From Planctomicrobium piriforme (GTDB taxonomy: Bacteria > Planctomycetota > Planctomycetia > Planctomycetales > Planctomycetaceae), in assembly GCA_945860955.1 (NCBI GenBank), contig CAMATH010000011.1, positions 1 to 64,000 on the forward strand: DNA of 64,000 nt. The letters are read 5' to 3'. The notes beneath the pieces were generated by a model, which was given only the letters and a program-made list of their open reading frames with translations, was not told the origin of the DNA and searched no databases. Both the position numbers and the translations under genes were made by a program. Shown here in pieces: positions 17,984 to 45,003 of the stretch. Every line of letters starts with the position of its first letter. The stretch's first letter is position 1.

Positions 17984-18703
17984 CTACAGCGACGGATTCT
18001 GTGCGATCACCTTGTGCAGCTCTGGTAGAAATTCTCGCAAAACTGTTTCACACAGTTCTGAGTCGTTCGCATCCTGGCTGCCTGCGGTGCGCGTGCCGAC
18101 TCGTGGATCTCGGTTCGGTTCGTCCGTTGCAGCAATTTGTCTTGTGACGTAGATCTTGTAGAGGTAGGGGGCACCGCTGAAGCTGAATCTCGGCAAATCG
18201 GGGGACTCCCATGTCTCCCCATCCCTGGACCACGCCCAATAAGTGCGGAGTGCCTGGATCCTCGTCTCACCTGTTGGCTTAAAATCCACCCACTTGAAAC
18301 TCCCCCACGACTTATTTCCATCGGGACTCCGCATGTTCACACGGGATTCTTTTCCAACGATCTCCAACCCCATCCCCAGAAAACAGACCGTTGGAGGGTG
18401 GACCGACAACGGACGAGTCTGCCCACAAAGCAACATGACGTTCGCCTTGATTCCCGTCTTGTCGTTCACAAGTTGTACGTTGTACCATCCAACAGTTCCG
18501 GTCTGTTTGCGTGCGGATTCCTCCAGTTCAAGAGCCGTGGCTGTCCAGTCGCCGAATTGCATCGGCAGGTTCTTTAACCCATCGGCTGCAATTTGCATGC
18601 CATTGGAAGTGGTCCATCGCGAAACGAACAACCCGTGCGCGACCCCTGTCGCCAAAACAACGGCTAAGCATGTTGCCGGGAGCATCCAGCGATTCGCAGT
18701 CAT
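17984..18703 (-). CDS. epsI: exosortase-associated EpsI-like protein
   Basis: A 239-residue protein with one N-terminal membrane segment (residues 7-25) and a periplasmic domain. The domain has the EpsI features LKNLPMQFGDWTA and the central VMLLCGQTRPLSVHPPTVCFLGMGLEI, which includes a conserved HxPxxCF element. EpsI proteins accompany exosortases as separate proteins or C-terminal fusions. They are thought to take part in polymer assembly or sorting, though their reaction is not established. The gene lies between the priming transferase and the Wzc-like gene, two genes away from the exosortase. Confidence 0.8.
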   Translation of the reverse strand: MTANRWMLPATCLAVVLATGVAHGLFVSRWTTSNGMQIAADGLKNLPMQFGDWTATALELEESARKQTGTVGWYNVQLVNDKTGIKANVMLLCGQTRPLSVHPPTVCFLGMGLEIVGKESRVNMRSPDGNKSWGSFKWVDFKPTGETRIQALRTYWAWSRDGETWESPDLPRFSFSGAPYLYKIYVTRQIAATDEPNRDPRVGTRTAGSQDANDSELCETVLREFLPELHKVIAQNPSL

Positions 18704-18768
18704 TATTATCAGATCTCCTTCAGTTTCACGTGTCCGCGCAAACGCGTTCTTGACCGCCTCGCCATCAA

Positions 18769-21063
18769 TCAGGCACCACCACCTTCGGCCGGATCAGGTT
18801 CCACTGGCGAAACGTCCGCCGCACGGCTGGCTTTGGCCCCGTAGCCATAACCATAGCCATAGGAGTACCGGTAGCCACTGAGCGATTGGTCTACGCCGAT
18901 CACCACTGCCCCCCAAATCGGCGCGCCCATCATCTGAAGCTTTTGGCAGGCCGAAGCGACTTTGGAAAACTGGCTCACGTCCCGACGAACCGAGAGTATC
19001 ACTCCGTCCACGTACTGTGCGATCAACAAACCATCAGTCACCGGCATCAATGGAGACGTGTCCACAACGACGAAGTCGAATTCCGCCCGTAGGCGATCCA
19101 TCAGGTGTGTCATTCCGTCTTGAGCCAACTGCCGTAACGCGTCTCCCGTCAGAACTCCCGACGCGATCACAAACAAACCTTCTTGAGAGGTCGGCTGGAT
19201 GACCGTGGAGGGATCGATAGGTTGAGTGATCGCTTCGCAGAGTCCTGGTTCGCTCGCGACGTTGAATACACGGTGAACCGTCGGCCGCCTGAGATCGGCG
19301 TCGATGACAACTGTGCGATAACCGGCACGGGCCAGACTGGTCGCCATGTGGCAGGACATCGTGGTTTTCCCCTCACTGGTGATGGCGCTCGAGATCATGA
19401 CCACCTTGGCATTTTCCAAACTGGCTCTTCGCAACAGCATCACTCGTGCCGAATCCACTGATTCGATCAAAGCACCCTGCCAAGGCTGAGTCCCTCCCGA
19501 CAACTCGGCACCCGCCGACTGGGACCGGGCCGCCGGTATCAATGGCAGCGAACCGAGAATTGGAAGCCGTAGTCCGCTGACGATGTCGTCCAGGCTGTTG
19601 ATTCGGCGAGTTCTCAAGTCGAGAAGTAGAATCCCGACTACGATCAGTCCGAACAATCCACCGCCACTTCCCAACGTGGCGACGACCTTCTTCCCAATAT
19701 CGGGCGCGGCCGGTATTGGGGCATCGCGAAATCTCTCAACGCGTGGCTGGGAGTCGATCGAGAACCTCGCATGTTCCCCCTCATCTTGCAGTCGATTGAA
19801 CATCAATTCGAACTGTTCGATGGACTTGTTCAGTCCGGACAATTCAAACGTCCAGGTTAGGTTGTTTGTACGGGATTCATCTTCGTGGACGAGCTGTTTT
19901 TCGTAGAGTTCAATTTCCACATCGAGAAGCTGTACCTGTCTTCGCAATTGCGCAGATCCCTGGGTTGTCAACTGATCGATGTTGCGCTTCAGGTCGGCTA
20001 TCACAGGTTCACGCAGAGAATCACGTAGCTCATTCAGTTTTCCCTCGGCCACTTTGACCGCTTGGACCGCAGTCTCCAAACGACTTTGCGAGTTACTGGC
20101 CCTTTCCAATCTTGCGAGATTCTGTCGCTCCAGTTCCACATGGGCCAGTGCGGCTTGGACTTCCGGACGCCGGTCGAGCGCTAGATTCACGATTTGCTCA
20201 CTGAGATCCTGCGGATCACTTTTGTTCTCGGATTCACGCAGCGACAGTTCCGCGAGAATCTTGCTCTTTTCGATTTTCGCGGTGGTCAAACTCTTCCTGA
20301 TCGCTGCGTAAAACTGCTCTTTTGCCTCCATTTGTACCTGACGGCCTGCTTCGTTCTCCGAGCCGATTTTCTTGACCAACCGTTCCTTCGCCCGCTGCCA
20401 ATCCGTCAGCTTCGTTCTCACTTCCTGTTTTGCTTTGTCAATTGACTCCACTACTTTCGCGCGTTCGGTTTTGTCCCGCTGATCAACTTCTTTTGTAAAA
20501 ACGTCGACCACAGCGTTGACGATTCGTTCCAGTTCTTGCGGATTTGAGCCGGACATTGAAACGCTGATAAACTCCTGCCCCGGTGCCGAAATCTTGAGAG
20601 ACTTTTCCAGAAACGCCAGTTGTTCCACCTGCTCTCCCTGTTCGCGGATTGTCTGCAGTTCCTGGATCTCACTGCGGCGAAGCACTCCCCTCAAAACCAT
20701 TTGACTTTGCACGACGCGCGTCAGTGTCTGGCGGAATACGTCCCCCTTTTCACTCACCCCAACGGACGATTTTCCACCAGGTACGTAAGTTGCCGCCCTG
20801 ATGCGCAACTCGGCATGGGTTGAATAGGAGACCGGAATCAGGAGCCAAGCGCAAGCTGCCCCCAACAACCCCCCCAGCATTCCGAGGATTCCCGCGACAA
20901 GCCAGCGACGGCGAACCGCCGCCAGCACGCTGTTTTGGTCGACGACCATCCCGGTCTGCGGCGCTAGCTGATTTGGCGGGGCCGCAGTCGTGGCCGGAGC
21001 CATATACTCCGGCCGGCGAAGCGCTACCAGGGCACCCTGTCCGTTTTGTGGCTGTCCGTTCAT
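18769..21063 (-). CDS. Wzc-like polysaccharide co-polymerase with tyrosine-kinase domain
   Basis: About 764 residues. A first membrane segment (about residues 54-75, WLVAGILGMLGGLLGAACAW) and a second near residue 475 frame a long periplasmic region rich in coiled coil, as in Wzz/Wzc proteins. The cytoplasmic C-terminal part is a BY-kinase: Walker A in SSAITSEGKTT near residue 560, Walker A' in VVIDADLRRP, Walker B in FDFVVVDTSPLMP. It ends with a tyrosine-rich tail (YRYSYGYGYGYG), the expected autophosphorylation cluster. It would control chain length and export of the polymer. The ATG at 21063 is preferred; the frame to 21126 nearly reaches the exosortase stop. No separate outer-membrane Wza partner is seen in the window. 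Confidence 0.88.
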   Translation of the reverse strand: MNGQPQNGQGALVALRRPEYMAPATTAAPPNQLAPQTGMVVDQNSVLAAVRRRWLVAGILGMLGGLLGAACAWLLIPVSYSTHAELRIRAATYVPGGKSSVGVSEKGDVFRQTLTRVVQSQMVLRGVLRRSEIQELQTIREQGEQVEQLAFLEKSLKISAPGQEFISVSMSGSNPQELERIVNAVVDVFTKEVDQRDKTERAKVVESIDKAKQEVRTKLTDWQRAKERLVKKIGSENEAGRQVQMEAKEQFYAAIRKSLTTAKIEKSKILAELSLRESENKSDPQDLSEQIVNLALDRRPEVQAALAHVELERQNLARLERASNSQSRLETAVQAVKVAEGKLNELRDSLREPVIADLKRNIDQLTTQGSAQLRRQVQLLDVEIELYEKQLVHEDESRTNNLTWTFELSGLNKSIEQFELMFNRLQDEGEHARFSIDSQPRVERFRDAPIPAAPDIGKKVVATLGSGGGLFGLIVVGILLLDLRTRRINSLDDIVSGLRLPILGSLPLIPAARSQSAGAELSGGTQPWQGALIESVDSARVMLLRRASLENAKVVMISSAITSEGKTTMSCHMATSLARAGYRTVVIDADLRRPTVHRVFNVASEPGLCEAITQPIDPSTVIQPTSQEGLFVIASGVLTGDALRQLAQDGMTHLMDRLRAEFDFVVVDTSPLMPVTDGLLIAQYVDGVILSVRRDVSQFSKVASACQKLQMMGAPIWGAVVIGVDQSLSGYRYSYGYGYGYGAKASRAADVSPVEPDPAEGGGA

Positions 21064-21132
21064 TTCGAATCCTGATGTTGCATGTGAACTCGAACAACAG
21101 GCCCCGGTCGGGGGACCTGACTGCACATGTTA

Positions 21133-22107
21133 CTAACGTCGCGGCGGCTGAGTGCCGGTTGGTCGGGAACCTGAAACTCTGCTGCCGCCGACAGGCACCA
21201 ACGGTCGATCTTGTTCAATGATCAAAAGTCGTGCCAAAATCCACGCTTCGATTCCCAACATCAACAAGCCTAAAGGCATCATCGCGAAGCCGGCTAGATC
21301 GTGCAAAAATCCCTCTGCCAAAGCCTTGTCGAACGTCTCGTAAAAAATGGCAGTCAACACAATTCGCAGAATATTGGCCACCAAGGCAATGGGAACCGAA
21401 CTCAGAACGATGACAATTCGCTCCCACAGAGGACGTTGCGAGAGCAACGCGACAGCAAACGCCAACGCCACAAAAATCATCAACATTCTCAGGCCGCTGC
21501 ACGCCTCGGCAACTCCGACCACGGAATTACTCAGTTCAATGACGTTCCCCCGAGGAAATGCGTTAAATCCAAGCACCTGTAGGAAGTACGTTCCGACGAT
21601 TGTGCCCATTCGACGGAGTGGGCGCCGCGCGAACGTGGATACGGAATACGGCAGTGGGACCATTAAAAGCAGGAATCCCACAGGAGCCAACGACCAGCGA
21701 AAAATCCCCCAGCCAAAACTGAGAAGCACCGCACCGCCAACGGCCAGCACAAGAGACACGGACTCGAGATATTCCAGGAAAAAATATGCCGAGGCAAATC
21801 TCAAAAGATTCGCAACGACAAACATCCCGGCTCCTAGGGCCCGTAGTTTTGAACTGACGGCCGGACGCGAATCGCGCCACGCCCAGATCAGATAGAGACT
21901 GAACACCGGAACCAGATATCCATGAGAGTACTGGGGGTCACTCCCCCACCTCTCGAACATCGTCTCAAACGTGGGCCAATAGGCCCACGCGGTTGCAAGC
22001 ATCAGAACCGCAAAAATAGCCCATTCGGTAGTACCGATCTGCCGATCTCCTGCCGACGACTTCGGACCGGCCGTCTGCACAGGACTTGTCGCTTCGCTTT
22101 TCGCCAT
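21133..22107 (-). CDS. exosortase/archaeosortase family transpeptidase
   Basis: A 324-residue integral membrane protein with about eight hydrophobic segments and the complete exosortase active site: Cys203 in VAEACSGLRML, Arg248 in ANILRIV and His269 in GFLHDLAGF. Exosortases recognise short C-terminal sorting tails such as PEP-CTERM, cleave them and are thought to attach the protein to a surface carbohydrate. Here it is the first gene of the polysaccharide cluster, preceded by a plausible ribosome site (AGGTAGGA, a few bases before ATG) and a candidate promoter. The cluster has no obvious PEP-CTERM substrate; targets must lie elsewhere in the genome. Which exosortase subfamily this is cannot be settled here. 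Confidence 0.88.
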   Translation of the reverse strand: MAKSEATSPVQTAGPKSSAGDRQIGTTEWAIFAVLMLATAWAYWPTFETMFERWGSDPQYSHGYLVPVFSLYLIWAWRDSRPAVSSKLRALGAGMFVVANLLRFASAYFFLEYLESVSLVLAVGGAVLLSFGWGIFRWSLAPVGFLLLMVPLPYSVSTFARRPLRRMGTIVGTYFLQVLGFNAFPRGNVIELSNSVVGVAEACSGLRMLMIFVALAFAVALLSQRPLWERIVIVLSSVPIALVANILRIVLTAIFYETFDKALAEGFLHDLAGFAMMPLGLLMLGIEAWILARLLIIEQDRPLVPVGGSRVSGSRPTGTQPPRR

Positions 22108-23036: not shown

Positions 23037-23629
23037 GAATCCAGCTCTGCGAATCTGTGAGGGTGGGGCGGGAAAAGATCTTCACGTAGTTGATTCTTGT
23101 CTCGTTGATTCCCAGAGTCAAGTCCGTCACTGGAACAAAAGATCAGTTGTCTGGCCAGTTCGAGCGACAGTCTGCGATGCAGCAGTCGCGGTCGGCCTTA
23201 CTGGTCGGCACGGATTGGAATTTGACGTCGGATTGGTTTCCCTGCAGAGTTGACATGACCTAAAGCACCCGGAGTCTATTCATGTGAATAGGTGTTCGCA
23301 ATTTGATTGCCGCAGTTTGCTGCGATTGGTTCATTTTGAGTCAGGAGCCGCCAGTGTTTGACGGCGTTAGGACATCCCCTCAAATCACGACCGAAGCCGC
23401 TCAGTACCAGTTGACGCAACAACGTGTGCTTATCAGTGTCTCGGTTCCGGAAGCCTACTGCCCCGCCGAACCATCGCTTGAAGTCCATTTGGTGCGAAAT
23501 TACCATTCTTCGGAATCCTACCAAACTCCCCGGGCGGCGTTTTCGCCCGATCTCTCACTTGACTGGTTTGTGGCCCGGCGCACTCTGCTCGCCGCGCGTC
23601 CCTCAAGGTCGAACAACTGGAACCTGAGA
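23037..23629. other. 593-bp divergent intergenic region
   Basis: This is the gap between the DUF1326 gene and the start chosen for the giant gene. The plus frame is open from 23303, but residues before the chosen start are not family-like. A perfect palindrome CTATTCATGTGAATAG lies at 23276-23291 and a small hairpin (CGCAG, loop TTTG, CTGCG) at 23311-23324. I found no convincing promoter for the giant gene. Confidence 0.4.
23276..23291. promoter_or_regulatory. 16-bp perfect palindrome, possible operator
   Basis: CTATTCATGTGAATAG reads the same on both strands. It lies in the divergent region, about 240 bp before the DUF1326 start and about 340 bp before the giant gene. Size and symmetry suit a dimeric repressor site, but no regulator can be named. 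Confidence 0.35.
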
Positions 23630-26600
23630 ATGTCTGATCGTTCGCGCGCTGTGCGGTGGTTGTCTCGCGTCTACGGGTCGTTGCTTCAGAGAATGCGCGT
23701 ACGTGAGGCCCAAAGCCGAATTCAGCGCCGGCGGCCGGCGACGCGAGGGAGTGAGCTTCAGGAACTCGAACCCCGGCTCCTCCTGGCAACGACCGCGGCC
23801 AATACAACCATCGGGACGTTCACCGGTGGGGATGCGAATGAAGGACTCGATCTGGAAGGGAAGTTTGTTTATGCGGTGAATGTGAATGGTCCCGCGGTCG
23901 GGCCGATTCGGGATGCGAGTTTCACCAGTTCCGCCTCGACGGCCGGATTGAGTCTGTTCGCAACCGATTCTATTTCCAGTTTCTACACACCCGATTTCGG
24001 AAACTCGCCGAACGACAACGCTCTTGAAACGGTGATGAAGTCGATTTCGTTCACTGTCAGCCCCAATCCGGTGCGGTTCACGCTGGCCAATCTGACGGTG
24101 GGAATGGACTACAAGCTGCAGCTCCTCCTCGGGGGACCGAGCAATAATCGCGGGTTTGACATTTACGCGAACGCTGGCGTCGACGTGAAGATTGTTGACG
24201 ATTTCAGTGTGACCGATACCCAGGGAGGGGTGAACGCCACCACAAAGGGAGGGGTTGTCACCTACCAGTTCACCGCGACTCAGTCGACGCTACAAGTGCG
24301 CCTGGATGGATCGACCACGACGTTTAGCGACAAAAATCCGATTCTCAACGGCCTGACTCTGGAAAGTCTGACTCCGTTGGTGACATTGGGGCCGGTCGTG
24401 AACGCGACGGAGGGATTCGGATTTGGCAGTACCATCGACGGGTTCTCGAAGGCGCTCGACGTCAGCACGGCGAATGCGACGGCCAATGTGGGAGACAAGC
24501 TGCAACTGGCGAAGAACAAGACCTACACACAGGAATTCCTGGTGTATCCCCAGGCGAACGCTGCGGGCGAACTGTATTCCTGGAAGAACACGTCGAACCC
24601 GGTCGCATCGACGACCGTGGGAGCGTTCAGTGGGGGCGACCTGGGAGAAGGTCTGGATCTCGACGGAAAATTTACCTACGCGGTGAATGTCCGTGGACCA
24701 GCGGTTGGCACCATTCGCGATGCGACGTTCACCAACGATTCCGCGACGGGCGTCAGCGTGACAGCTCCCTTTGAAATCCTCAATTTTGTCGCTTCGGATT
24801 TCGGATCCTCTGCCAATGACAATGCGCTCGAATCCGTGATGCAGTCAATCCGGTGGAATGCCAACCCCGGCAAATTGGCGGCCACGCTGGGCAAACTGGT
24901 AGTCGGAACCGAGTACAAACTCCAACTGCTGTTCGAAGACGTGATCACCGATCGCGGATTTGACGTTTTTATGGGTGGCACAAAAATTGTGAGTTCCTTC
25001 TTCCCGGGGGCGGTTCAGGGAAGTGGCCAGCTCACGAAGAAGGGGGCGGTGATCACCCACCAGTTCGTCGCGACCGCCACATCGCTCTCGATCACACTCG
25101 ACGGGTCGGCGACCACAGCGCGCGACAAAAACCCGATCCTCAACGGCTTGACTCTCGAAGATCTCGGCGCGCGCAGTCCGATCCTAGGAACGGTCAAGAC
25201 CTATAACTCGGGGAGGGGCCTACAGATTGGCGGACCGGCGGGCCAGCAAACATTCGATGTCGCGCTCAACCCCGACGCCTGGAACCACGTCGCCCAGACC
25301 TTCGATGGTTCCCAGTCGCAGCTCTACGTCAACGGTGTACTGGTCCAATCGACCCCAGCGGCGGCGGACCTGAATTTCATTGAGCCGACACAGATCGCTC
25401 TGGGAAGTCAACCGGGAGCACTCGATGAACTGCGGGTTTGGAACGTCGCCCGCACTCAGGCAGAAATCCAGAAGTCGATGTACACGGCACTGGAAGGGAC
25501 CGAAAAGGGATTGCAGGGGTACTGGCCGTTTGACAGTGACCTGAAAGACAAGTCCACCAGGTCAGCGGACTTTGTGAAGTCGTCCGGGACCGCGTCGTTC
25601 TTCAACAACCCACAGCCTCAGGTCGGATCGGTGGACGTCGTTGTCGACCAGCCCGTCACCTCGGCGGTCGGACTGTTTGTCGGCTACACGATCACGGGCG
25701 GGACGGCGATCGAAAACGATGATTTCTACAGTTCGCGATTTCGAACCGTCTCGTTCCAACCATCAACCGAGCGGTTGGGGGTCATCATTCCGCAGGGGGA
25801 AACGCGCGGGAAGATCTATTTTCTGGTAAGGCCAGACGCGATTTCCGAGACCACCGAAAGCGTCTCGATTCAACTCGAGGATTTTACCTTCGCGACGAGC
25901 AAGTACGTCATCGGCACGAACAAGACGGCGACCGTCTCGATCACCGACAACGGAGCGTATCGGCCGGGTGTGGCGCTATTTGACGCCGACGGCCGCGCGC
26001 TGCTTCCCGATGCGACCGGGGTTGTTCCGTATTACGTTCCAGGAAACTCCACCCTGGCCAGCCTGGATGTCGCGCTGACCAGTCAGCCTGCCAGCGATGT
26101 CACCCTGACGCTCTCACCCGGAAACGGTTTCTTTAACGTCAACGGAACCCGCCCCGCCACAATCTCGCTGGTCTTTACGAAAGACAATTGGGACCAGCGG
26201 CGCCGTGTTCAATTGGGAATCGCGATTCCGGGGGTGACAAAAACGTTCGTGGTCATTTCACAAAGTGGCTCGACCTCGTATCTCGCGACCCCCGTGAATT
26301 TTCCCTACACATCGGTTCCCCCGAACACCGGGAAAGTGGGGGAGGGGAACGCGGGGGATTCCGCGACGCTGATTCCGACCGTGCAGATCGCCAAGGTGCG
26401 CGATGCCAAAGAAGGAGACGACCAGGGTGGCGCGTTCCATATCACCCTGGACACCCCGGCACCGGCCGGAGGTCTGGACATTGGATATCGCTCAACGCTG
26501 AATGAACTGACGACGATTGGTGCCTTCAGTGGGGGAGATGTCGGCGAAGGACTGGATCTCGACGGGGAATTTCCGTATGCCGTCAATCTGCGCGGGGGTG

Positions 26601-29600
26601 CGGTCGGCCTGATTCGCGACGCGAACTTCACCACCGACTCAGTCGCCGGGGTGGTGGTCACGTCGTTGTTCAACATCTTGAATTTCGCCACTCCGGACTA
26701 CGGTCCCACCACGAATGACGATCGCCTGGAGACCGTCATGCAGTCAATTCGCTGGACGTCCAATCCGAATCAGATTCTGACCCAGCTTAGTGGTTTGGTT
26801 CCCGGCGTCGAATACAAACTGCAGTTACTCTTCCAGGAAAATGGCGCGGATCGTGGGTTTGACGTGACTGTCGGTGGCACAAAGATCGCCGACGATTTCA
26901 ATCCCGGCAGAATCCAGGGAGGGAAGTCCGCGACAAGTCGCGGCGCGGTGATCACGTACCAGTTCGTGGCGCAGTCCTCGACTCTGAACTTCCAATTGGA
27001 TGGTTTGAGCACACCGTTCGCCGACAAGAATCCCATTTTCAACGCATTCACACTCGAGAAGTTACCACAGGCAGCGGAAGTTCCGCTGAATGGCGTCGTG
27101 CATGTGCCGGAAGGGGCACTGTCGGCGGATCTTCGCATTGTGATTCCGGACAATTCGATCGCGGCAGGCGCGTCACGCACGCTGACGACATCCCTCGTCA
27201 ATGACTTTGTCCGATACACCGTGCTGAATGGAGATTCTCGCGCCAGTCTGCAGATCATCGACAACGACCAGGCGCGGATTGTTGTTGGGAATTTCTCTGA
27301 GAATCCTGCGTCATCTCCCTCGACTGAACCCAACGAGACAGTGGCTGAGGCCAACGACCTGGGAACACTTATTCCTGGGACTTCGTTTACCTCAAATCTC
27401 TTCTCGTCTGACGATACCGATATTTTCCGATTCACCATCGATCCCGCGGTCGGGCCTGTCGATTTCATCCAGGTCACTGGCCCCAACATCGGCGGGATGA
27501 CGGTTGAGTTGTTGAATGCCTCGGGGAATTCCATTGCCCTGATGAATGGTTCCCAGGCGATTCCCAAGCAGTACTTCTTCGGTTCCGGCGTGACTGTCGC
27601 CACGACTTACCAGGTGAAGATCAACGGTTATCGGTCCGGTGCGACGGACTACCAGGTTTCGTTCCTCCGCAGAGACACGAGTACCGAACCCAACAACAGC
27701 ACACAGACCGCGACGAACCTGGGAACCGTGGGGGTGGGTGTGGTCTCGGATTCTTTCCTCCGTGGTGCATCCAGCGAATCTCCAACCGATCCCGACTTCT
27801 ACAAGTTTCAGTTGGATGACCAAGTTGCGGAGATGTCGAGCGTCAATCTGCGTTTCGCCGCGAACCAGCCAATGACGTTGACCCTGTATGATTCGACGGG
27901 AAGATTGCTGGATACGAGGTCAACGGCTGCCACGACGGGGACGCAATCGACGATTAGCCTCCCGCTCGGAGCGGCGGTGCAGCGCGGGAATGGTGTGTAC
28001 TTCGTTCGCGTGACTCCCCAGTCGCCTGCCAACTCCTGGAACTACAAGCTGGACTTCGCCGGTCAGGCGTTCAACCGCGCCGGCGGGATCTTCCTCCCCA
28101 GCTACTCCCCCGTTGTCGTCGAAGAGTCCGCGAGTACGGTGGTGTCAAAGCGCCTGGGGTTGCGGCTTGACTCGCAACCGTCGGCTCCTGTCACCCTGCA
28201 GTTGACGACAACCAGCACGGGGACAACCCGCGCGGGTACCGTCACACCCGAGACATTGACGTTCACCCCGACCAACTGGAATCTGTACCAGGGGGTCACG
28301 GTCACACCGATCGATGACCTGCTGCCGGATGGCGATCAATCACTGTCCATTGTCGCATCCGCCACGAGCAGTGACCTGGGTTACAACAACAAGGTACTTA
28401 AATTCGACGCGTTGGTACTCGACAACGAGGATCCACCTGCCCCCGCTGTCGTGGATCGTACGCAAAGTGCCGATCTGCCACTGGTCTTTCTCACAGGGAT
28501 GGGACAAGCGGTCGCCGAGTCGACTTCAACACTGTCGTACAACGTCGCGCTCAGCAAGCCGGTTTCGAGTGACACGTACGTCGGGTTCGCATTTGACGAA
28601 GGGACGGCGACGTTAGGGCAGGACTTCACCGTCTCGACCGGGTTCGTGCGTGATTTCCGCAGCATGGATTTTGGTGTCGGGGGGATTAAGATCGCGGCGG
28701 GGGCGACGGTGCCGGCGTTTGCCGACATTGATCGAGATGGCGATGTCGACCTGTTGGTGGGGTCGGCGAGCGGGCCGATGCAGTTCTACAGGAACGTGGG
28801 ATCGAAGACGACGCCCCGATTCGCATTCCAGTCGGGAACCAGTGATCCATTCAGTTCCCTGGGGGGGCCTGCGCTGGGTGGCTATACCCATCCGGCATTC
28901 GCCGACGTCGACGGAGATGGCAGGATCGACCTGGTCGTGGGTTCACAGACCGGTTTGAATTTCTACCGCAACGACGGAACGACAACTTCGCCTGGGGTCC
29001 GCTTTGTGGCGATGTCAATCAGCCCGTTTCCGGCGCTCGCGACACTGAATGGAAGCTTTTTCGCACCAACGTTCGCGGATCTCGACGGCGACGGGGACCA
29101 GGATCTGTTTGTTCCGCGGCGGGGGGATACCAACGTCGCGTATTTTGAACGCACAGGAACGGCTACGTTCACGCGGAACGACGCCAAATTGACGACGGCG
29201 GGCATTGGCGGGCTGGGAACAACCGATACGCCGACCATCGGATTCGCCGATCTGGATGGAGATCGCGACCTCGACGCGTTTATCGGATTGAGTACGGCGA
29301 CATTCGCCAGACTGAACGGAGGGACGCGGACGTCACCGAGTTTTCCGACTGCCGGTTTCGCGAGATTTCGCGAAGTCACGTCGGCAGTGAAAGACGCGGC
29401 GTGGACAACAGCCGACCTGAACGGCGACGGAATTCCCGAGGAGATCGGCGGTGACGTGGGTGGCCGGTTGCGCGCGTTCACCAGCTATCAGGCGCTGTTG
29501 ATTCCCAAGGGAAGCACCCGTGCCACGGTCACGCTCGCGATCAACAACGATTTGATCGGGGAAGGTACGGTGGATCCGGCCAAGCCCCAAGTGGGGAAGA

Positions 29601-32600
29601 AGGAGGACATTGGAGTTCGGGTGCTGGAGTCGCCGTTTTATTCCTTCGGCAAATACACGGTCAAAAAGGTCGTCGAGAATGGAGTCGAGAAAGATGTGGA
29701 TGTTCCGTTCAATGTGACCGACACCTACGACGCCGACCAGGATGGGAACAAGACCGAGATTCTGCCCGCAGTCTATGCGGGCACACTGGGGATTCAAGAC
29801 AACGATACCGCGGGTTTTGTCACCCAGAACAGTGATGCCACGGTGACGGAAGGGGGAAAACGTGTCGCGTTTGGGGTGAAACTGGCGACCCAGCCAATCG
29901 CCGACGTCAGCGTCTATGTCGGAAGTTCTGACGTGACCGAAGGAGTGATCGTCAACGGGACGAATGCCGGAGCCGAGACGACGACTCTGACCTTTACACC
30001 GGCGAACTGGAATGTCTTTCAGACGGTCAATATCGCGGGGGTCAACGATCGGTACGACGACGGCGATCGGCCGTTCACGGTTCTGGTCAGTTCCACGAGC
30101 GACGACGTTCCCTACCGACAGCTCACCGGCCCCAAAGTGAATTTCGTCAACACTGACGATGAGACCGCGGGCATCGTGGTGACAAGTCCGCAGGCGACCG
30201 CGAACGGATCGCCAAATGTGTTCAGCGTTCAGTTGCAGACCGAACCGATCGGCCAGGTTTTTGTGACAATGACTCCGGAAAACGACCAGATCCGGATCAA
30301 CGGCGCGCCGGCCGGCACACCGGTCACGATCACGTTCGATTCTTTGAACTGGACGTTGCGCCAACTGGTCCAGGTGACCTCCGTCGACGATGGCTTCGTG
30401 GAGTACATCCACAAAAGCAGCGTCCGATTCACGGTGGAAACCGGGCGTAAGCTCAATGGGCCGACGGTGGCCGATCTCTCCACCAAGGAGAAAGCGGTCG
30501 ACCTGGGTGACATCGGCGGCGGGCTGATCTGGACCAATCTTCCGTTCAGCACGACGATTGGCGGCGGTGCCTGGTTCAAGTTTACGCTGCCGGAAATGGG
30601 TGGCCCCCTCGATTTCATCCGCACGACCGCGGCGGGTCTTTCGGTGTCGTCGGCTCCGCGACTGAGCCTGTACAACCTCCAGGGGGCGCCGGTCAGTGTC
30701 TCGGGAACACCCCAGTCGCTGTCGCTCAATGGGCTGCGCGACGGGGAGTATCTGCTGAATGTCGTGGGAGACATCAATCTTCCGCGCGGCTTCACGCTCT
30801 CGTTTGATGGCGCGGATCGGCAGTTTGAGAAACTGACGCTCGCGACGGTGCCGTTTTCGATCGCCGACAATGACGTTCCCACCGCCAATCTTGTCTCCGG
30901 TCCTTCGGCTTCGGAAGTGTTCAGCACCCCCAGTTATTTCGCGGTGAAGTTGAACGCCCCCGCGCCGGCCGGTGTGGGGGACGCGGGAATTCGGGTGAAT
31001 TTCGAACTGCTCAATTCGGGACGGGCGACGTTCGGAACGTCGACCTCGACCCTGCACGATTTCAGCCTCTCCGCCGACTTTTTCGATCCAGTCACCCGGA
31101 AGGGTTACGTCCGGGTTGCCCCGGGGGATGTGCAGGCGAATATCGGAATCATTCCCGTCGATGACAAACTGGTCGAAGACCTGCCGTTGCGGCTGCGGGA
31201 ATTGAGTTTCAACAGTGGCATTGGCGATTTCATCATTCGAATCGCTGTCGACAATTCCATCGGAGATCCGAGTGACCGCTCGCCGTTGGTGCTGGCGGCG
31301 GGGACGATCGTCAAAGGACGGCTCCCCAGCGGTCGGGAAATCACCGTTGTCGTGAAAGAGAAGACGGATCTGATTTATGGAACCTATGGGACACCTCAGG
31401 GGGGGCTCATCGCGGAGTACGCCGCTGCCGTCAAAGTGACTGGTTTCACGGCGGATGATTTCGCCGCCGGCGTCGCTGTCGGAGCGAATACCGAATACCG
31501 CGGCAGCGTGCAGTCCGAAGATGTTCAGGTCCGCATTCTCCCGGGCGACGGTTACATCCTGCCCCTGGCGACCGATAAGCAGACGCTCAATCCCCGCGAT
31601 CCGGCGGTGCAGTCCAACATCGCTAATTTCGACCCCGCGCACATCGCGGCAAGCGTGACGATCAAGGACGACGATGTCGCCGGCATCCAGTTGGTGCGGA
31701 TTGGCGATGACGGAAATCTGGCCGAGGGGGAAACAGCCCGGTATGGCGTGGCGCTGACGGCTGAACCCAAAGCGGATGTCACGGTCACGTTAAGTTCCGA
31801 CGGCCAGATGACGTTCGGCGACCCGACAACCGTGGACGGGGCCAAAGTGAAGCCCGCGACCTATACGTTGCGACAGACACTTGTGGCGACCGGCCCGAAT
31901 ACAACCGATCCAAAAGTCGAGTTGCACCTGGGTTCGTTGGTGAAAACGGACCTCGGTTGGGCAGCCGCGATTGACGCCCGACTTCAGAACATCACCGTCA
32001 ACGAACAGACTGTCGAGCGGAATCTGGCGCTCAAGATGTTTGACACCACAACCAAAGCGAATGGTGACCTCGCTGCGTTCCAGATTCCCAGCGGAACCGC
32101 GGTGGACGCGGCGGGAGTTCCGGTCGCGGGGAATTGGGACCAGTTCCAGCGTCTGATCGTTACGAACCTGACGCCGCAGTCGAGTGCTGGCGTCGACTAT
32201 TTCGAGGTGAGTCTGACGCTCGCGGGTGGAGCGGAAAAGGTCGTGCGAATCGATGTGGGGGTTGGGAAAGAAATCACAGCCAATACGAAAACGTTCACTT
32301 TCCGGCCGGCTGACTGGTTTAAGTTCCAGGAATTCAACGTCACCGGAAAACCCAACGCGGTTGCGGAGCCTGGCAATTGGCACCAGGGAATGATCACTGC
32401 CACCCTTGCCAGTCCCTTGGATGCGGCGTGGGATGGAGCCCCGGTTCCAGGGCAGCTAATTCGCCTGGCGGACCAGCAGTTGCAGGGTGGGCAGACCGCG
32501 CAGGCGCTGGCTGCCGGCTTTGCCGTCTTGCGCGACAGTCTCGACAGCTTGAAGTTGCCGTTGGTGGGGAACCTGCTGACGGCGGCCCCGGAAGTCGGCG

Positions 32601-35600
32601 GATTCTTCGATTCGTCGCTGGCTCCGCTAACAACGACGCTCAAGTCGCAGAATCAACTTTCCGCGACAGAATTGGCCGAGTTGTCGCAGAGCGCACAAGA
32701 CGATCCGACCACCGCCGACCCGACCGATGAAGGCTTCCTCGACGAGTTCTCGATTGTACCCGAGGCGACCGAAGACCAGATCACCCTCCATATCACCATG
32801 GAGAAGACCTGGCACATCGGCAGCCTTGATCTGTCAACCGACATTGGTCTCGATGCGCTCGGACTCTCGTTGCAAACGTCGGGTGGCCTCATCGCCGAGG
32901 TGAAATTCAAGCTGGAGTTTGTGTTCGGTTTGAGCCGGACGTTCGGCTTCTTTATCGATACCGCCCAGACCGGACTCGATGTCGACGCGACTGTCACGCT
33001 CGACAATTTCTCGGGAACGGGCGCTCTGGGATTCCTGCAGGTCGACTTCGAGGACGATTCCGAGAACCCCAGCGAATTGGGGATTCACTTCCACGCTGGC
33101 CTCAACGATCTCGACAACTACCAGACATTGCAGTTCTTCGACATCAACGGCGACGGCATGCTGGCGAGCGGCGACTTCCAGGCGGCGATCGGCGTCGATG
33201 TGAACCCCGCGAACAACCTCATCGATGATGCCAATAACGACGGCAATCCCGACACCGTGGTCAAGACCGTCGCCGAGCCGTTTCTCAATGTCAATCCCCG
33301 CGGCGTCCCGGTCGACCTGGCCGGCGCGCCCGCCGATTTCCCCACGGTCAGTTCGCTTGGCGGAACCGCGCTCGCCAATGCGAAGAACGCCGACTGGAAT
33401 GGCAGCGGAACATTCGACGAGGCGGTTTCGATCACCAATGAAGGGGTCTACCGGACTCGGACTCTCAATGGCAAGACGATTGTCTACTTTGACTCGAACA
33501 ACAACGGTCGACTCGAAATCGGCAAGCGGAACGTCGATCCGTTCAATTCCAGTTGGTCGGCCCTGACCACCGCGCAGAAAAACAAGAGTGAAATCTGGAT
33601 TGCTGGCGGAACCAGGCGCTGGACGACCGCTCAGAATACCGTCAACGAATTCCAGATCCAAACGACGGGAGTCGGTACGGCGGCGAAGTTCTACTTCGAC
33701 TCAAATGGCGATGGAATTCTGAGTACGACGGAGGAAATCAGCGCCAAACTGCGCAAACAGCTCGACAAGAACAAGGATGGTGTCCTCAAGGCGAATATTC
33801 AAAAGGACGGTGAAGGAACCTTGCTGCAAGGGAAGGGAATTGCTTTTGCCGATGCCAATGGAAACGGACTGCTGGACTACAACGAAAAGTTCGTCAATTC
33901 GGGATTTGGAGACACTACATTCCCTGAGACCGAAGATGGGCAATTCGCAGGAGCGACCAGTCCTTTCACGGTCCAGGGGGCGGGAACTGGAACTGTCTAC
34001 ATCGACCTCAACGGGAACGGCTTCGATTCGCTCGATCCGCAGGCGGTCGAAGGGGAAGAGATTGTTGTTCCCGAAACGTCTCTGGATGGCAAATCGATGT
34101 TTGTCACCATTCCTGTCGTCAAGGATTCCACAGGGAAACGGTTCCTCGATTTCAACAAAAACGGGGTCCGCGATCTCCCCACAAAACCGGGTGATCCCAT
34201 TGTCGAACGGTATATCGGCGATCCAAACGCGGTCGGCAACCAATCGATCGCTGATCGGTTCCATATTGGCGATTTGCAGACTTCGTTTACATTCTTCGAT
34301 TCCGAGGCGGACGGAAAACTCGGCATTCGGGATTTCGCCGCCATCACCGTGGCGGGGCAGCGGTTCATCGATCTCGATTTCAACGGTGTGCTGACCGAAT
34401 CGGAAGAGGGGGAGACGCTTGAACCCTCCGCCGAGCAGAACAACACCTTCGACACGACCGGGTTTCCCGCGAATGTCCCGGTGGTGCAAATGCTCAACGA
34501 CGGTGATCGACTGACGCTCAAGGAATTGCTCAACTTCACGCGCCAGGTCCGCTCGCAAAATACCCGCCGGACCGACCAGTTGAAGGCCGGTCTCGATTTG
34601 TTCGAATACAGCTTCCGCGGCGGGGCGAATCTGGGACTGCACGCGGTGACAAGCATTGGCGGCAACGAGGCGTTCCCGTCGTTCTCGTTTGATTTGGCGG
34701 TGAATTTCCCGTTGTTCAATTTCGGCAATGAAGCCGAGGCGGGCAAGACAGGGTTCACGGTCGACTTCAACCATGTGACAATGCAGTTGGGGACGTTCCT
34801 GCAGGACTTCGCCGCTCCGATCATTCAGACCGTGGATGATCTGTTGGCCCCCATCAAGCCGATCGTTCAGGTGTTGAACGCCGACACCAAGGTGTTCGGC
34901 GCGCTGGGTTTGGAGGGAGCCTTTGAAAGCGATGGCCGTCCCGGGGTTTCACTGCTCGAGGTCGCCAAGGTTCTGGCACCGGCCGATAAGAAGCCGGCGA
35001 TCGAGACCGCAATCAAATTCGCCACGATCCTGTCCAACATCATTGATGTGTCGGAGACGCTCAACGAGACCCTTTCGAGCGGGGACAACGCCACGATTGA
35101 GTTCGGCGACTTTTCGTTGTCCGATTTGCGGGCGGCCAGCGATGATCCCGCCAACAACGCGTCGCATGCCCGGCAGACCGCGCTCACCAATGGTCAGCAG
35201 CCTGCCCAGGCGCGAACCCGCGCCGCCAACGGTGCCACCTCGACGCTGAATCAGGCCACCGGAGTCGCGGCGCAGACCGCCATGGTCGACGCGACCGCGA
35301 AGAAGTCCAACGTCTTCAAGAAGCTGGGCCAACTCGAAGGCTTCAAATTCAATCTCTTCAATCCCGACACGGTCATGTCGCTGCTGATGGGTGAAGAGGC
35401 GGTCGATATCGTCACGTACGATGTTCCAGACTTCAAATTCGACTTCAGCATTTTGCAGAAGTTCCGCATCTGGGGACCGCTCGCCGGTCTGATCCAGGGG
35501 GGATTCAGCGTTTCGACCGATCTTGCGGTTGGTTTTGACACCGCCGGCCTGGATGAGTGGAAGGAGGACGATTTCGCTCCCTCGACAGCGTACAAAGTCT

Positions 35601-38600
35601 TCGACGGCTTCTACTTCAACGACTTGAGTCCCAGCGGGTTTGACAAAAACGAACTCCAGGTCAACGCCTTCATCGCCGTCGGCGCGGGGCTGGATCTGGG
35701 GATCGTGAGTGGGTTCGTCCGGGGTGGAATTCGCGGCGAAATCGGCCTCGATCTGGTGGATCAGGGAGAGCGGAGCGGTGAATCCGACGGCAAGGTGCGC
35801 GGCAGCGACATTATCGCCGCGTTCCAGAATAATCCTCTCGATCTGTTCGAACTCAACGGCAAGATCGAAGCGTTTCTCGGAGTGCTGGTCGAAGTCGATT
35901 TCTTCTTCTTTTCGGAAGTGGTCTACGAAAAGGATTTCGCCACGTTCAAGTTGGCCGAATTCAAACTCGACACCAGCGGTTTCAGCGGATCGAGCGATTT
36001 CGGCAGGGCGCAAGCCGGTCCCATCAGCGGCGGATTCGTGTGGCTCGATGCCAACAACAACTTGGACTTCGATGTGGGGGAACCTTCGACGACAACCGAC
36101 GTGGACGGCAACTACCAATTGTTTATTCCTGATGGATACAACACCGGCAGCGGCATTGTCCGCATTCGGGGTGGTGTGGATACCACCACGGGGTTGACGC
36201 ATAAATCAACCCTCAGTCAGCAACTGGGAGATTTGGTAGCGACACCATTCACCACTCTGGCGAATGAAGTCGCGGTTACGCCCATTGACGAGCAGTTGAT
36301 CGACTTCGACGCCAATTCCATTATCGATGGGGCCGATTCGGACCTCTTCCAACAGTACTTCACCAGCGGCGATTTGAGAGCCGATCTCAATCGCGACGGT
36401 GTGGTCGATGACACGGATACCGACGAGTTCCTGCTGTTCTATGAAGTCGCGCGCCAAGGCGGGACGCCGAGTTATCCGCAGGCTCAAAAACTGATTCTGC
36501 TTGCAGTCGGTTTGGATCCCAACTTGGATCTTTCGACGCTTGCGCATCTCGACGCGAGCCTCGCGGATGACCCCAGAGCCAAAGAGGTTCTGGTGCAGGT
36601 GGATGCATATGGTGGGCTGGTGACTGGTGCCAAGGCTTGGTTGGCTGGAGCGGCCGGGATCCCCAGCGACTCCCCCCTGACCGACACCATTCTCAGCAAC
36701 GCGGTCAATCGTGCGATCGCCCGGCGAATTGTCACGGGGCATACCGACTTGACGGATTTCGACACAGTGCATGCGATCGTGGCGGACGCACTGGAATTCG
36801 CGAATCAAGCGTTCATTGCGAATGGGCTTCCGAACCGAATTGATCCGCTGGTCGCGGCTCCCCGGACGGCCGCGGTCGCAAATGTGCTTGTCGCCGGGGC
36901 AGTCGAGATGCAGATCCTCGCCAACGAGGCGCGCGACGCGGTCGAACTGGCGGCACTTGTCACAAAGGTCAAGCTGAATAATGCGTCGGGTCGATCGGAC
37001 GACCTCTACGCGTTTGGACTGGGAGGACTCACAGAATCTGAACTGCTGGCGCTGGCCGGGCGGGTCGACGACGAATCGCTGGCGCGAATTCGTGGGCTAT
37101 CGTTGCCACCCTACATCGCCCATATCAATGACTTCCACCTCTTAGAGGGCTCTTCGACGGACGACACGCACTTTGTGGCGATTGATCTCGATACGCCACG
37201 TGATGTACTCCAGCTCTCGATCGCTTCCGACAATCCGGGGCTTTTGCCTGCGGAAAATGTCACCGTGACACCTCAGCCCGACTTCTACGACTGGACGCTG
37301 GCGATTCATCCCGTTGCCAACGCCTCGGGCGTGGCGCACATCACACTCACGGTGACCGATGAGGCCGGCAACCATAACTCCCGAACATTCGCGGTCACCG
37401 TCAAGCCGGTGAATGACGCCCCGTTGGCGCGGCCCGACGCGCTGAGCGTGGTGGGAGAATTCCCTTTGAAGTTCGATCCCCGGGCCAATGACTTCGACGC
37501 CGACGGCGACCTTTTGAACGCCACCGTGCTGGATCAACCGCAACATGGTCGCCTCATCGCGAATGACGACGGCACATTCACTTACATCGCCGATTCTGGT
37601 TTTTCTGGCCGCGATACGGCGACTTACGCGCTCGGTGACGGATACAACGGTGTCGACACCGGCACGCTGACGTTCGATGTCTCGGCCGCTTTGACGGCGG
37701 TCTTCACTCCCGTCACCCCGGATCCCCGCAATGCGGGCGTTCCGAGTGTCGACGTGACGTTCTCGCGGGCTGTCGATCCCAGGACTTTGTCGATTTCCGA
37801 CTTCCGCATGACCCGCAACGGTAGCCCCAATCTGTTAGGGCCGGCCCAGCAGGTGACATACGTTTCCGGAACCACCTGGCGGATCTCGGGATTGACCGCG
37901 CCGACGATTCCGCTGGGGGTCTACGAGATTTCTGTCGACGCACGGGGCGTTAAAGATCTGAGTGGGAACTCGGGAACCAATACCGCCTTTGATCGCTGGT
38001 TGATGGACTATGTCCCCCCCACCAGTCGGGTGAACCCGCTCCCCGCAGTCGCCACCAGTGCGTCGTTCACATTAAACGTCACGGGTTCTGATCTGGATAT
38101 TGCCGGCATTGCCCCCAGTTCCGGTTTGGATCTGTACCAGATCTACGTCTCAACCGATGGCAAGCCGTTCGTCCTGTACACGACCGGAAAGTTCAGCGAG
38201 GGAACGTCGGTCAACTTCACGGCCGATGGGGCACATCTCTACCTGTTCCGCTCGGTGTCACGCGATCTGGCGGGGAACACGGAACCGAAGTCGGCGTTCG
38301 CCGCCGACGCCGCGATCGTCGTCCCGGACCTGTTCGCTCCCGATACCCAGGTGGCGGGAGTCAACACCGCGACCTCGAAATTCACCGTTTCGATGCAAGG
38401 GGTCGACAATGGCGGGGGAACTCTCGCCGCGTTCGACCTTTATGTCTCGGTCGATGGATCGACCGATTCCCTGGTGACCCGTGTTCCTGCGGGGGTGGCA
38501 GATGCTCAGGGAGTGTATCGCGCCTCGGTCCAATACCAGGCGATCTCCGATGGACTACCGCACAACTACCGCTTCTACACCCGCGGCATCGACGTCCGTG

Positions 38601-41901: not shown

Positions 41902-43515
41902 TTACCGCCGAATCGCCCGCAGCGCCGCCGCCATTCGGTCAACTTCTTCGCGGGTATTGTAGATCGACAGCGAGGGGCGGACTGTTGCATCGAGCCCGAA
42001 CCGACGCAATGAGGGCTGCGCACAGTGGTGACCGGCTCGCACCGCAATCCCCTCCAGATCGAGCAGTCTCCCCACCTCTTCGGGGCGCATTCCTGCCAGC
42101 ACGAATGACAAGACACCGACTTTTTCGCGCGCGGTTCCGATCAACCGCAACCCGTTCACACTCAGGAGTCGTTCCGTCGCGTAGCCGAGCAATTCGTGTT
42201 CATAAAGGGCGATGTTCGGCAGTCCCAGTCGATTCACATAATCCAGGGCGGCACCGAGTCCGACGGCATCGGCGATGTTGGGGGTTCCCGCTTCAAATCG
42301 CGCGGGCGGGTCGGCATAGGTTGTCTCTTCGAACGTGACGTGCCGAATCATGTTGCCGCCTCCCTGCCAGGGGGGCATGATCTCCTGCAATTCCGACTTG
42401 GCGAAAACGGCACCAATCCCCGTCGGGCCAAAAATCTTGTGTCCGGAAAAGACGAAGAAGTCAAAGTCATGTTCCCGCACATTCACCGGAACATGAGCGA
42501 CGGACTGGGCACCGTCGATCAGAACCCGCGCGCCGTAGCGCTTGGCCATCTGCGTCATCTCAACGACGGGGAGCAGTGTTCCCAGGCTGTTTGAGGCCTG
42601 AGTGAGTGCCACCAGTCGTGTTCGGGGACCAAGCAGCCGCTGGTATTCTTCCAGCAGTATCTCACCACGGTCATTCACTGGAATCACGCGCAGTACCGCC
42701 CCTTTTTCGCGGGCCACCATTTGCCAGGGAACGATGTTGGCGTGGTGTTCGAGTTGCGACAGTACGATTTCATCTCCCGGCTGCAAGAATTTGCGACCGT
42801 ACGTCTGAGCGATCAGGTTGATCCCTTCGGTTGTGCCACGCACGAAGATGATCTCCTCGACGGAGCCCGCCCCCACAAACTTCTGGACTTTCTGTCGGGC
42901 CTGTTCGTAGGCATCGGTGGCGCGGGCGGCGAGGGTGTGGGCTCCCCGGTGGATATTGGAATTGTCGGTGGTGTAGAACCGCGACAGCGCGTCAATCACG
43001 CTTTGCGGTTTTTGCGTGGTCGCCGCATTGTCAAACCAGGCGAGTGGCTTGCCATGGATCGACTGTTTCAGGATCGGAAAATCGCGGCGAATCGCCTGCA
43101 CATCAAACGGTCGCGCCGTTTCCGGAACTGAACCGCTGTTGGAAAGACGGGTCTGCAGAGGCGAGGTTGCGGGACGGTCGAGGCACGGCCCGCTATCGGA
43201 ATCCAGTTTCATCCCCTGGACCCGGCGGACGAACGCGCGCAGTCCGTCCTCCCCGGCACCCGGCGGCGTCGGCTCGGTGGGAAACGCAAACGGCGACGCG
43301 TTTCCGAATGGGGGAACGGAGTTCAAGGTTGGTGGGGGAAGATCGACCGATCCTTCCGCGGGTAAGAAATCGGCTGTGGAAGCCGGGACCGCCGCCGGCG
43401 GCACCAGGGATTGCACCGCCTCCCCCGGGACGGGGCCGGCCGCCGACGCGGCCAGCGCGTCTTCAAACAATCGGGCGGCCATCGCGGAGATTTGTTCCGC
43501 TGTGACATCTTGCAT
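41902..43515 (-). CDS. cysteine desulfurase with long N-terminal extension, encapsulin cargo
   Basis: A 537-residue PLP enzyme of the SufS type that takes sulfur from cysteine. The catalytic domain starts near residue 136 (FDVQAIRRDFPILK). It has NAATTQKP, SHR-type NIHRGAH, the PLP lysine Lys360 in FSGHKIFGPTG and the catalytic Cys498 in RAGHHCAQPSL. The first 135 residues are not enzyme: an N-terminal helix (TAEQISAMAARLFEDAL), a long Pro/Ala-rich linker and a second conserved-looking patch GLRAFVRRVQGMKL. In family 2 encapsulin systems such an extension loads the desulfurase into the shell, and here two shell genes precede it in the operon. It is the last gene, 48 nt after the second shell gene. 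Loading is inferred, the enzyme class is clear. Confidence 0.9.
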   Translation of the reverse strand: MQDVTAEQISAMAARLFEDALAASAAGPVPGEAVQSLVPPAAVPASTADFLPAEGSVDLPPPTLNSVPPFGNASPFAFPTEPTPPGAGEDGLRAFVRRVQGMKLDSDSGPCLDRPATSPLQTRLSNSGSVPETARPFDVQAIRRDFPILKQSIHGKPLAWFDNAATTQKPQSVIDALSRFYTTDNSNIHRGAHTLAARATDAYEQARQKVQKFVGAGSVEEIIFVRGTTEGINLIAQTYGRKFLQPGDEIVLSQLEHHANIVPWQMVAREKGAVLRVIPVNDRGEILLEEYQRLLGPRTRLVALTQASNSLGTLLPVVEMTQMAKRYGARVLIDGAQSVAHVPVNVREHDFDFFVFSGHKIFGPTGIGAVFAKSELQEIMPPWQGGGNMIRHVTFEETTYADPPARFEAGTPNIADAVGLGAALDYVNRLGLPNIALYEHELLGYATERLLSVNGLRLIGTAREKVGVLSFVLAGMRPEEVGRLLDLEGIAVRAGHHCAQPSLRRFGLDATVRPSLSIYNTREEVDRMAAALRAIRR

Positions 43516-43563: not shown

Positions 43564-45003
43564 CTACTTGAGTTTCGCGCGGCGGTTTTCGTAATCGTGG
43601 TAGTAACCCACCTCGACGTTTTCCAGAACGCCCAATGCGTCGTCGGTGAGGACGGCGGCACTGAAGTACAGCGTCAACAGATACGATGCCACTCCCAGAC
43701 TGTCCAGTCCCATCAGCCGCGCCGACAGACTCGGCATGATCTCGCCGGGGATGCCCGTCTGGTGCAGTCCCACGACCCCTTGGTCGGCTTCGCCCACGCG
43801 AAACAGCAGGATGTTCGTGGTTCCCAGCCACTGGTTGGAATGGTACCGGCTCTTGATTTCAAGTTTGTCACAGGGAATGAGTGGCACTCCACGCCACAGG
43901 ATTACCGGTGTTCCAAACAACGTTGTGGTGACCGGCGGAACTCCGCGCCACGTGCATTCCCGTTCAAACGCGGCGATCGCCTTCGGATGCGCGAGGAAAA
44001 ACGCCGGTTTTTTCCAGACCAGTGCCAGCAATTCATCCAGGTCATCGGGGGTCGGTGCACCGTATCGCGTGCTGATTCGCATCGCCGGGTCGACCGAATG
44101 CAGCAGGCCGAACCGGTTGCTGTTGATCAGCTCCCATTCCTGCCGCTCCTTGATTCCCTCGACGGTCAGCCGCATCTGCTCTTCGAGCTGATTGTACGGA
44201 CCGTTGTAAAGGTCGGAGACACGCGTATGAACGCGGACAACCGTTTGCACCGCCGACAGTGAGTACTCTCGCGGTGTGGCGGAATAGTCAACAAACGTCT
44301 CGGGGATTTCGACATTTTCCGCGAAGCCCGAGACGAGGTCGATATTCCGTTCGCCGTAGCGATTGACCGTCGAACGCAACTCGAGATGTTCGTCGATCGC
44401 CTTTTGAAATTCGCTCGCGATCGTCGGGAGTTCTTTCAGGATGAGATCGAGATCCTTGCGAGACAACGTCACCAGAATGCAAGGTTTGATCGTGCGAATC
44501 GTCACATCAGATGGTTTGGCGCTGATCAAGTCGGTTTCGCCAAAAAACTCACCTTCGGTCAGCAGCGCGATTCTCAGATCGCTGCCGTGGACCCCTTTGC
44601 TGAGCACCTCAATCTGACCCTGCGCGATGATGAAGAACTTGCTGCGGTCCTCCCCTTCGACGAGCAGATTGTTTCCCAACGAGACTTCTTCGGTCTTGAA
44701 CCGACTGGCCATCCGCTGCACGATGGCGTCCGGCAGCTTTGAGAACAACGGCACACTGCGGAGGGATTCTGGCGGGAAGGCCGCCGAGCCTCCGGTCAAG
44801 TCGATCGAAATCCGTTCCGCCTTTGACAATTCGACTTTCGTCCGGTTGACGCGGTAGGTTCCGCCATCGACCTGCACCCACGGCAGCAGGCTGAGCAGCC
44901 ACCGGGGAGTGATCGACATCATCTTGGGAGATGTCTTGGTGGTGTTCGCCAGGTTTCTGGCGACCGCGGTGGTCACGCTGCGTTGCAACAAGCTGTCCGA
45001 CAT
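43564..45003 (-). CDS. family 2 encapsulin shell protein with cNMP-binding-like insert, copy A
   Basis: A 479-residue HK97-fold shell protein of the SrpI type. The N-arm and first part ([20 protein letters not shown], then [15 protein letters not shown]) and the second part ([63 protein letters not shown]) match that family. Between them, about residues 81-205, sits a cyclic-nucleotide-binding-type domain with [14 protein letters not shown] and FFGETDL. Many proteins build a closed capsule in the cytoplasm around cargo. In the phosphate cassette, where an Arg normally follows Pro, this copy has PSDV, so ordinary cAMP binding is doubtful. It lies 102 nt after copy B and 48 nt before the desulfurase gene. 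Confidence 0.9.

Follow-up and report, generated by a model that had tools for sequence, protein, structure and literature searches.

In the RTX adhesins FrhA and MpIBP, split Ig-like domains project sugar-binding domains outward; a sugar- or peptide-binding domain splits the beta-sandwich scaffold, both of its ends leaving from one side, and the ligand site thereby points away from the axis of the protein (PMC10865825). An ECOD-wide catalogue describes nested insertions of the type A1-B1-C-B2-A2, with up to six levels, in which inserts are consistently smaller than their hosts (median 115 versus 199 aa; PMC13114784).

The giant gene analysed here lies in a 64,000-nucleotide stretch of DNA from Planctomicrobium piriforme (hereafter the window, to which all positions refer; features are on the forward strand unless marked otherwise). 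It shares with the RTX adhesins a scaffold beta-sandwich interrupted by a guest domain, and a role of that arrangement in display is suggested by the resemblance. It differs from them in that the scaffolds are Calx-beta-like, in that a single protein carries several guests, of three kinds, one of which itself hosts another, and in that insert-free relatives are at hand; binding would be assigned here by analogy. The architecture belongs to the same class as the nested insertions of the ECOD catalogue, but not to its size trend (PMC13114784), as the guests (LamG, ~210 aa; malectin-like, 185 aa; FG-GAP, ~279 aa) are larger than the Calx-beta hosts (~110-135 aa). That feature is unusual, as is the reuse of a single guest by two unrelated hosts within the same protein. 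Multi-level nesting is already known; the novelty lies in the record of successive steps and in the repetition of the guest. Domain insertion is common, yet is usually visible as an end product only. Here, one orthologous giant gene preserves states with zero, one and three malectin-like copies, so that the order of events becomes readable and the intermediates are accessible as proteins for experiment.

The gene occupies a single open reading frame (23303-39196) with TTG at its first position and 5,297 codons without an internal stop. Translation probably starts at ATG 23630 rather than at TTG 23303, because the protein of a neighbouring species (genome G002), in which this ATG is conserved, matches from about there (MSDRSRAVRWLSRVYGSLLQRM). 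Counted from that ATG, the putative surface-type protein (23630-39196) comprises 5,188 aa. An N-terminal motif, LEPRLLL (23765-23785), has the counterparts LEERALM, LEQRNLL and LETRDLL in relatives. Such LEPR-type motifs, like giant genes, would be in keeping with a planctomycete. The protein also contains FG-GAP repeats and cadherin/Ig-type domains, with a dockerin type I-like domain at the C-terminus (39008-39157), all identified by Pfam. Origin by tandem repeats was rejected, as a DNA-level search gave none.

The original prediction had proposed that a malectin-like module is nested in a LamG domain, which is in turn nested in a Calx-beta domain. The peptides quoted in support were all found in one frame and in the order given, at correct coordinates, the Calx-like start among them spanning aa 360-376 (24380-24430). 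The LamG domain (Laminin_G_3) is divided into an N part (aa 377-435, 24431-24607) and a C part (aa 623-772, 25169-25618), as delimited by Pfam and by the alignment of relatives. Between them lies copy 2 of the malectin-like module (24608-25168, with aa 436-621 at 24608-25165), as defined by excision, relatives and fold match; it is preceded by the peptide ELYSWKN (aa 423-429, 24569-24589), and its measured length of ~185 residues agrees with the ~186 that had been predicted. In the intact protein, Pfam Laminin_G_3 (PF13385) matches at profile positions 61-151 alone, with 52.1 bits. When copy 2 was excised, a single continuous match was obtained, as anticipated, covering positions 5-151 of 151 with 62.1 bits (cut-off, 27.6 bits).

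Using a module-free query, the LamG site was found to be uninterrupted in four other genomes (G068, G072, G248 and G152), with identities of 42% for G068 and 44% for G072. As relatives in these four genomes align across the junction without the module, the split in the LamG domain is not due to chance. Moreover, LamG domains across many bacteria align with the LamG of a relative and have no comparable insert, and no other LamG in this comparison is split in the manner of the window's, with its 185-residue interruption. When one uninterrupted relative (L054) was modelled, residues ~21-246 formed a complete LamG fold; its matches are 4dqa, a carbohydrate-binding protein from bacteria (Z 20.5), and pentraxins. 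In the window's own LamG, the N part was modelled poorly. It is apparent from these comparisons, at the level of sequence, that the module is inserted in the LamG domain; the copy in question is known from a single genome assembly, the contig of G002 stopping before that site.

The identity of the module was assessed by structure and profile comparisons. Residues 96-266 of the window model matched human malectin with Z 9.6 (rmsd 3.2, 129 aligned), Xenopus malectin with Z 8.9 and plant ANX/FER malectin domains with Z 8.5-9.6, part of the modelled module having pLDDT < 50. Malectin and CBM35-type beta-sandwiches are its best structural matches. A profile of 12 module rows searched against the PDB gave malectins as its four best matches, all weak (E 0.06-0.14). 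In Pfam searches (Malectin, PF11721; cut-off, 23 bits), the window copies differ from malectins proper in scoring below the cut-off, with at most 14.4 bits singly and 21.5 bits over the first 1500 aa, and weak matches were obtained for 5 of the 12 rows (best relative, E 0.00043). The module is therefore termed malectin-like only. A literature search for work linking malectin, planctomycetes and carbohydrate binding found none.

Class-wide, module matches occur in 12 of 397 genomes. Beyond the giant gene, the module mostly stands as an ordinary domain at one end of a protein or in tandem; among the examples are short PEP-CTERM-type proteins in which its neighbours are LamG-like domains or dockerins. 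In this survey it was inserted into other folds only in the window and in G152. Three of the short PEP-CTERM-type proteins, L141 (G346), L139 (G301) and L031 (G395), carry the module alone or in tandem; in L141, dockerin-type repeats come after it.

A whole-genome search of the window's genome located no module outside the giant gene, which holds all three copies: one at the N-terminus (copy 1, 23804-24370, adjoining the Calx-beta-like strand A described below), one in LamG and one in Calx-beta domain 2. The copies share 55-61% identity as proteins and 58-61% at the DNA level. Between copies, dN is 0.35-0.44 and dS is 1.5-2.9, which indicates that the protein has been conserved while silent sites became saturated; judged by this divergence, the copies are old. 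Duplication of the copies by misassembly might be suspected in a draft of 282 contigs. It is, in our estimation, scarcely credible, since the copies differ at ~40% of DNA positions and are in frame, and since independent genomes contain copy 3 (G152) and copy 1 (G002).

Evidence for the outer level comes from both sides of the LamG domain. The part that follows it (Calx-beta-like domain 1, C part; aa 773-884, 25619-25954), in which SVDVVVDQPV begins at aa 776 (25628) and SITDNG ends at aa 884 (25954), matches the CBD1 structures of NCX1 and CALX with Z 7.1-7.5 (rmsd ~3, 98-101 residues, 23-24% identity). It thus shares the fold of Calx-beta domains. The alignments start from the second strand onward, at NCX1/CALX residue 385 or 454/455 (385 in NCX1). 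CBD1 itself begins ~14 residues before those alignment starts. The C part accordingly appears to lack strand A, because its CBD1 match begins only at residue 385 or 454/455. A putative strand A precedes the LamG domain (N part, PLVTLGPVVNATEGFGFGS; aa 357-376, 24371-24430), as indicated by relatives and by a small Calx-beta strand A matrix. On that matrix, the pre-LamG piece PLVTLGPVVNATEGFG ranked third of all positions in the protein, and was the best non-training match, both higher-scoring positions being members of the training set. Conservation of the N part, including EGFG[FY]G, extends to G002, G152, G068, G072 and G248.

Taken together, these data make it probable that a Calx-beta-like shell encloses the LamG domain. 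The profile searches gave less than had been predicted for removal of the inserted module: while LamG became continuous, rejoined domain 1 matched Pfam Calx-beta (PF03160) weakly, at 18.8 bits over profile positions 17-118 against a cut-off of 27, and domain 1 of the relatives is likewise below the cut-off. In addition, none of the five relatives that cover the outer site has it without LamG, which is present in all of them. The three-level nesting that had been proposed is consequently supported at its inner level, and its outer level is probable though unproven.

The alternative for this region is that there are two levels only, the pre-LamG stretch being a linker strand and the post-LamG Calx-beta-like domain being complete and placed in tandem. 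Consistent with this, the Pfam Calx-beta match to the C part starts at profile position 35-39 and the N part raises its score little, while with a local Calx-beta profile the N part brings no gain to domain 1 (30.4 versus 30.8 bits). Strand A is also poorly predicted in both AlphaFold models. In that of the nested region (mean pLDDT 57), the first 77 residues are below 50 and strand A is unplaced, as it also is in the model of the relative, whose first 27 residues have pLDDT < 50. The poor quality of the former is attributable to an alignment that held few useful relatives over the first 77 residues; that alignment was a compromise, as MAFFT misplaced the gap between the uninterrupted relatives and the intact window protein, and Foldseek searches with the resulting model returned chiefly long, low-quality matches. 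Against a two-level arrangement stand the CBD1 match of the C part without strand A, the rank of the N part as the best non-training strand A match in the protein and the retention of EGFG[FY]G in five relatives. We regard it as unlikely, and the three-level arrangement is retained in what follows.

Two further scaffold domains were found to be interrupted by a guest, and for both there are insert-free relatives. Calx-beta domain 2 consists of an N part (26372-26509), copy 3 of the malectin-like module (26510-27064) and a C part that extends to IIDND (27065-27268), its N part being defined by relatives, Pfam in relatives and a local profile, and its C part by relatives and the local profile. 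It is uninterrupted, and above the Pfam cut-off of 27 bits, in G072 (45.4), G068 (41.3) and G248 (31.0), and is split at the identical place in the window and in G152, which demonstrates the insertion in aligned relatives. For the window domain, Pfam Calx-beta gave no match to the rejoined parts, and the local profile gave 33.7 bits for the rejoined domain, compared with 15.2 and 21.5 for the separate halves; none of 287 scored shuffles exceeded 5.0. Calx-beta-like domain 3 (N part, 28475-28654; C part, 29492-29806; both from relatives and the local profile) is the host of a block of FG-GAP repeats of ~279 aa (28655-29491) that is present in G152 and absent from G068, G072 and G248. Domains 1-3 of the window thus differ from typical Calx-beta domains in being split by guests and, as they stand, in falling below the Pfam cut-off.

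It might be argued that the hosts are broken, the window's LamG and Calx-beta 2 being decaying remnants and the modules alone being of consequence. The N part of LamG and the C part of Calx-beta 2 are indeed diverged (YTQEFLVYP versus FTIEGWYYP), and the window model is poor in the host region. This interpretation is distinctly improbable in view of the scores of the rejoined domains (62 bits for LamG and 33.7 bits for Calx-beta 2 with the local profile), the 43% identity to G152 across the host and the maintenance of a 5,297-codon frame without a stop.

The distribution of the inserts among relatives was used to order the events. The gene of G152 is orthologous along more than 4,000 residues, the 43% identity to the window being measured across the host. 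It contains copy 3 and the FG-GAP block and is devoid of copies 1 and 2; its Calx-beta-like start comes directly after LEERALM. G248, G072 and G068 form one clade (95/98), separate from the window and G152, and have neither copies 1-3 nor the FG-GAP block. In G002, copy 1 and the Calx-beta-like start are both present, after which its contig ends; among 170 genomes from the same family, it alone carries part of the giant gene. A search of 45 genomes of the family to which G152 belongs revealed no intermediate besides G152. The simplest order derived from these sequences has the LamG in domain 1 as oldest (present in all six), followed by the two inserts common to the window and G152 (copy 3 and the FG-GAP block), and then by copies 1 and 2. 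By the same comparison, G152 is an intermediate, one-copy state.

In the clade of G248, G068 and G072 (L134, L138 and L137 for G248, G072 and G068, in the order L134, L138, L137), ~460 residues of other beta domains lie between the N-terminal motif and domain 1. That position is empty in G152 and is occupied by module copy 1 in the window.

The opposite polarity, in which the inserts are ancestral and were precisely lost from the insert-free relatives, draws on the host tree, which comprises six rows and has an insecure root owing to the very long branch of G218. It would require several losses, each restoring a continuous LamG or Calx-beta fold. Copy 2, moreover, occurs in none of the relatives whose sequence spans the site, where bacterial LamG domains are ordinarily continuous, and in G218 as well, which is the most distant relative, the second Calx-beta-like domain is continuous. 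Ancestral inserts are thus very improbable, and stepwise gain is preferred.

In the module tree, the window copies group with that of G152 (89/89), the best supports being 87-89, and the order of copies 1-3 and their origin within the gene are not firmly resolved by it. Copying within the gene would be the simplest source of copies 1 and 2. All copies have the same ends, extending from TT[IV]G..F[ST]GGD to TLExL. A bolder proposal, which we put forward tentatively and hold to be rather less than an even prospect, is that the module has been mobile inside the gene that carries it, having entered a Calx-beta domain once and then been copied in frame, with the same ends, into the unrelated LamG fold and to the N-terminus without destroying its hosts. 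No DNA traces of insertion were recognisable at the module ends, where silent sites are near saturation. If the proposal is true, the gene offers a stepwise record of how multi-level nesting is built.

The overall interpretation that we consider likely is that of a surface-type protein with a backbone of successive Calx-beta-like domains, of which several have been split by whole domains of ligand-binding type. In domain 1, LamG would most likely sit in the loop between Calx-beta strands A and B, and a malectin-like beta-sandwich would be seated in a loop of that LamG, which gives three levels. The module would have entered Calx-beta domain 2 first, as the copy held in common with G152, and the N-terminal and LamG copies would have been gained later, in the lineage of the window. 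Every guest is predicted to be a compact domain, and the hosts have apparently kept their ability to fold. By analogy with the RTX adhesins, the split Calx-beta domains may present guests of carbohydrate-binding type away from the fibre axis, toward glycans or surfaces; on that basis, the protein would be located at the surface, bind glycans and display its guests side-on. Split scaffolds that present lectin-like guests may accordingly serve a separate bacterial lineage with a scaffold different from that of the RTX adhesins.

Additional features were observed within and around the gene. By eye, a PPC-like domain seems to split a further Calx-beta-like domain at aa ~2400-2560 (~30500-30980, ..SSVRFTVETG / KLTLATVPFSIADND), and a fourth possible case of splitting, also seen by eye, follows it near YTLRQTLVATGPN / NTKTFTFRPADW. 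The giant gene is adjoined by a putative exopolysaccharide/protein-sorting cluster (17984-22107, reverse strand), in which an exosortase EpsH gene, a DUF3485 gene and a gene for a ParA/tyrosine-kinase-type AAA_31 protein are found together; of these, the exosortase gene is located just upstream of the giant gene, on the opposite strand. Elsewhere in the window, a gene for a type 2A (SrpI-like) encapsulin shell protein that includes a cyclic-nucleotide-binding domain (43564-45003, reverse strand) has a class V aminotransferase gene adjacent to it (41902-43515, reverse strand), the product of which we take to be a cysteine desulfurase-type cargo enzyme.
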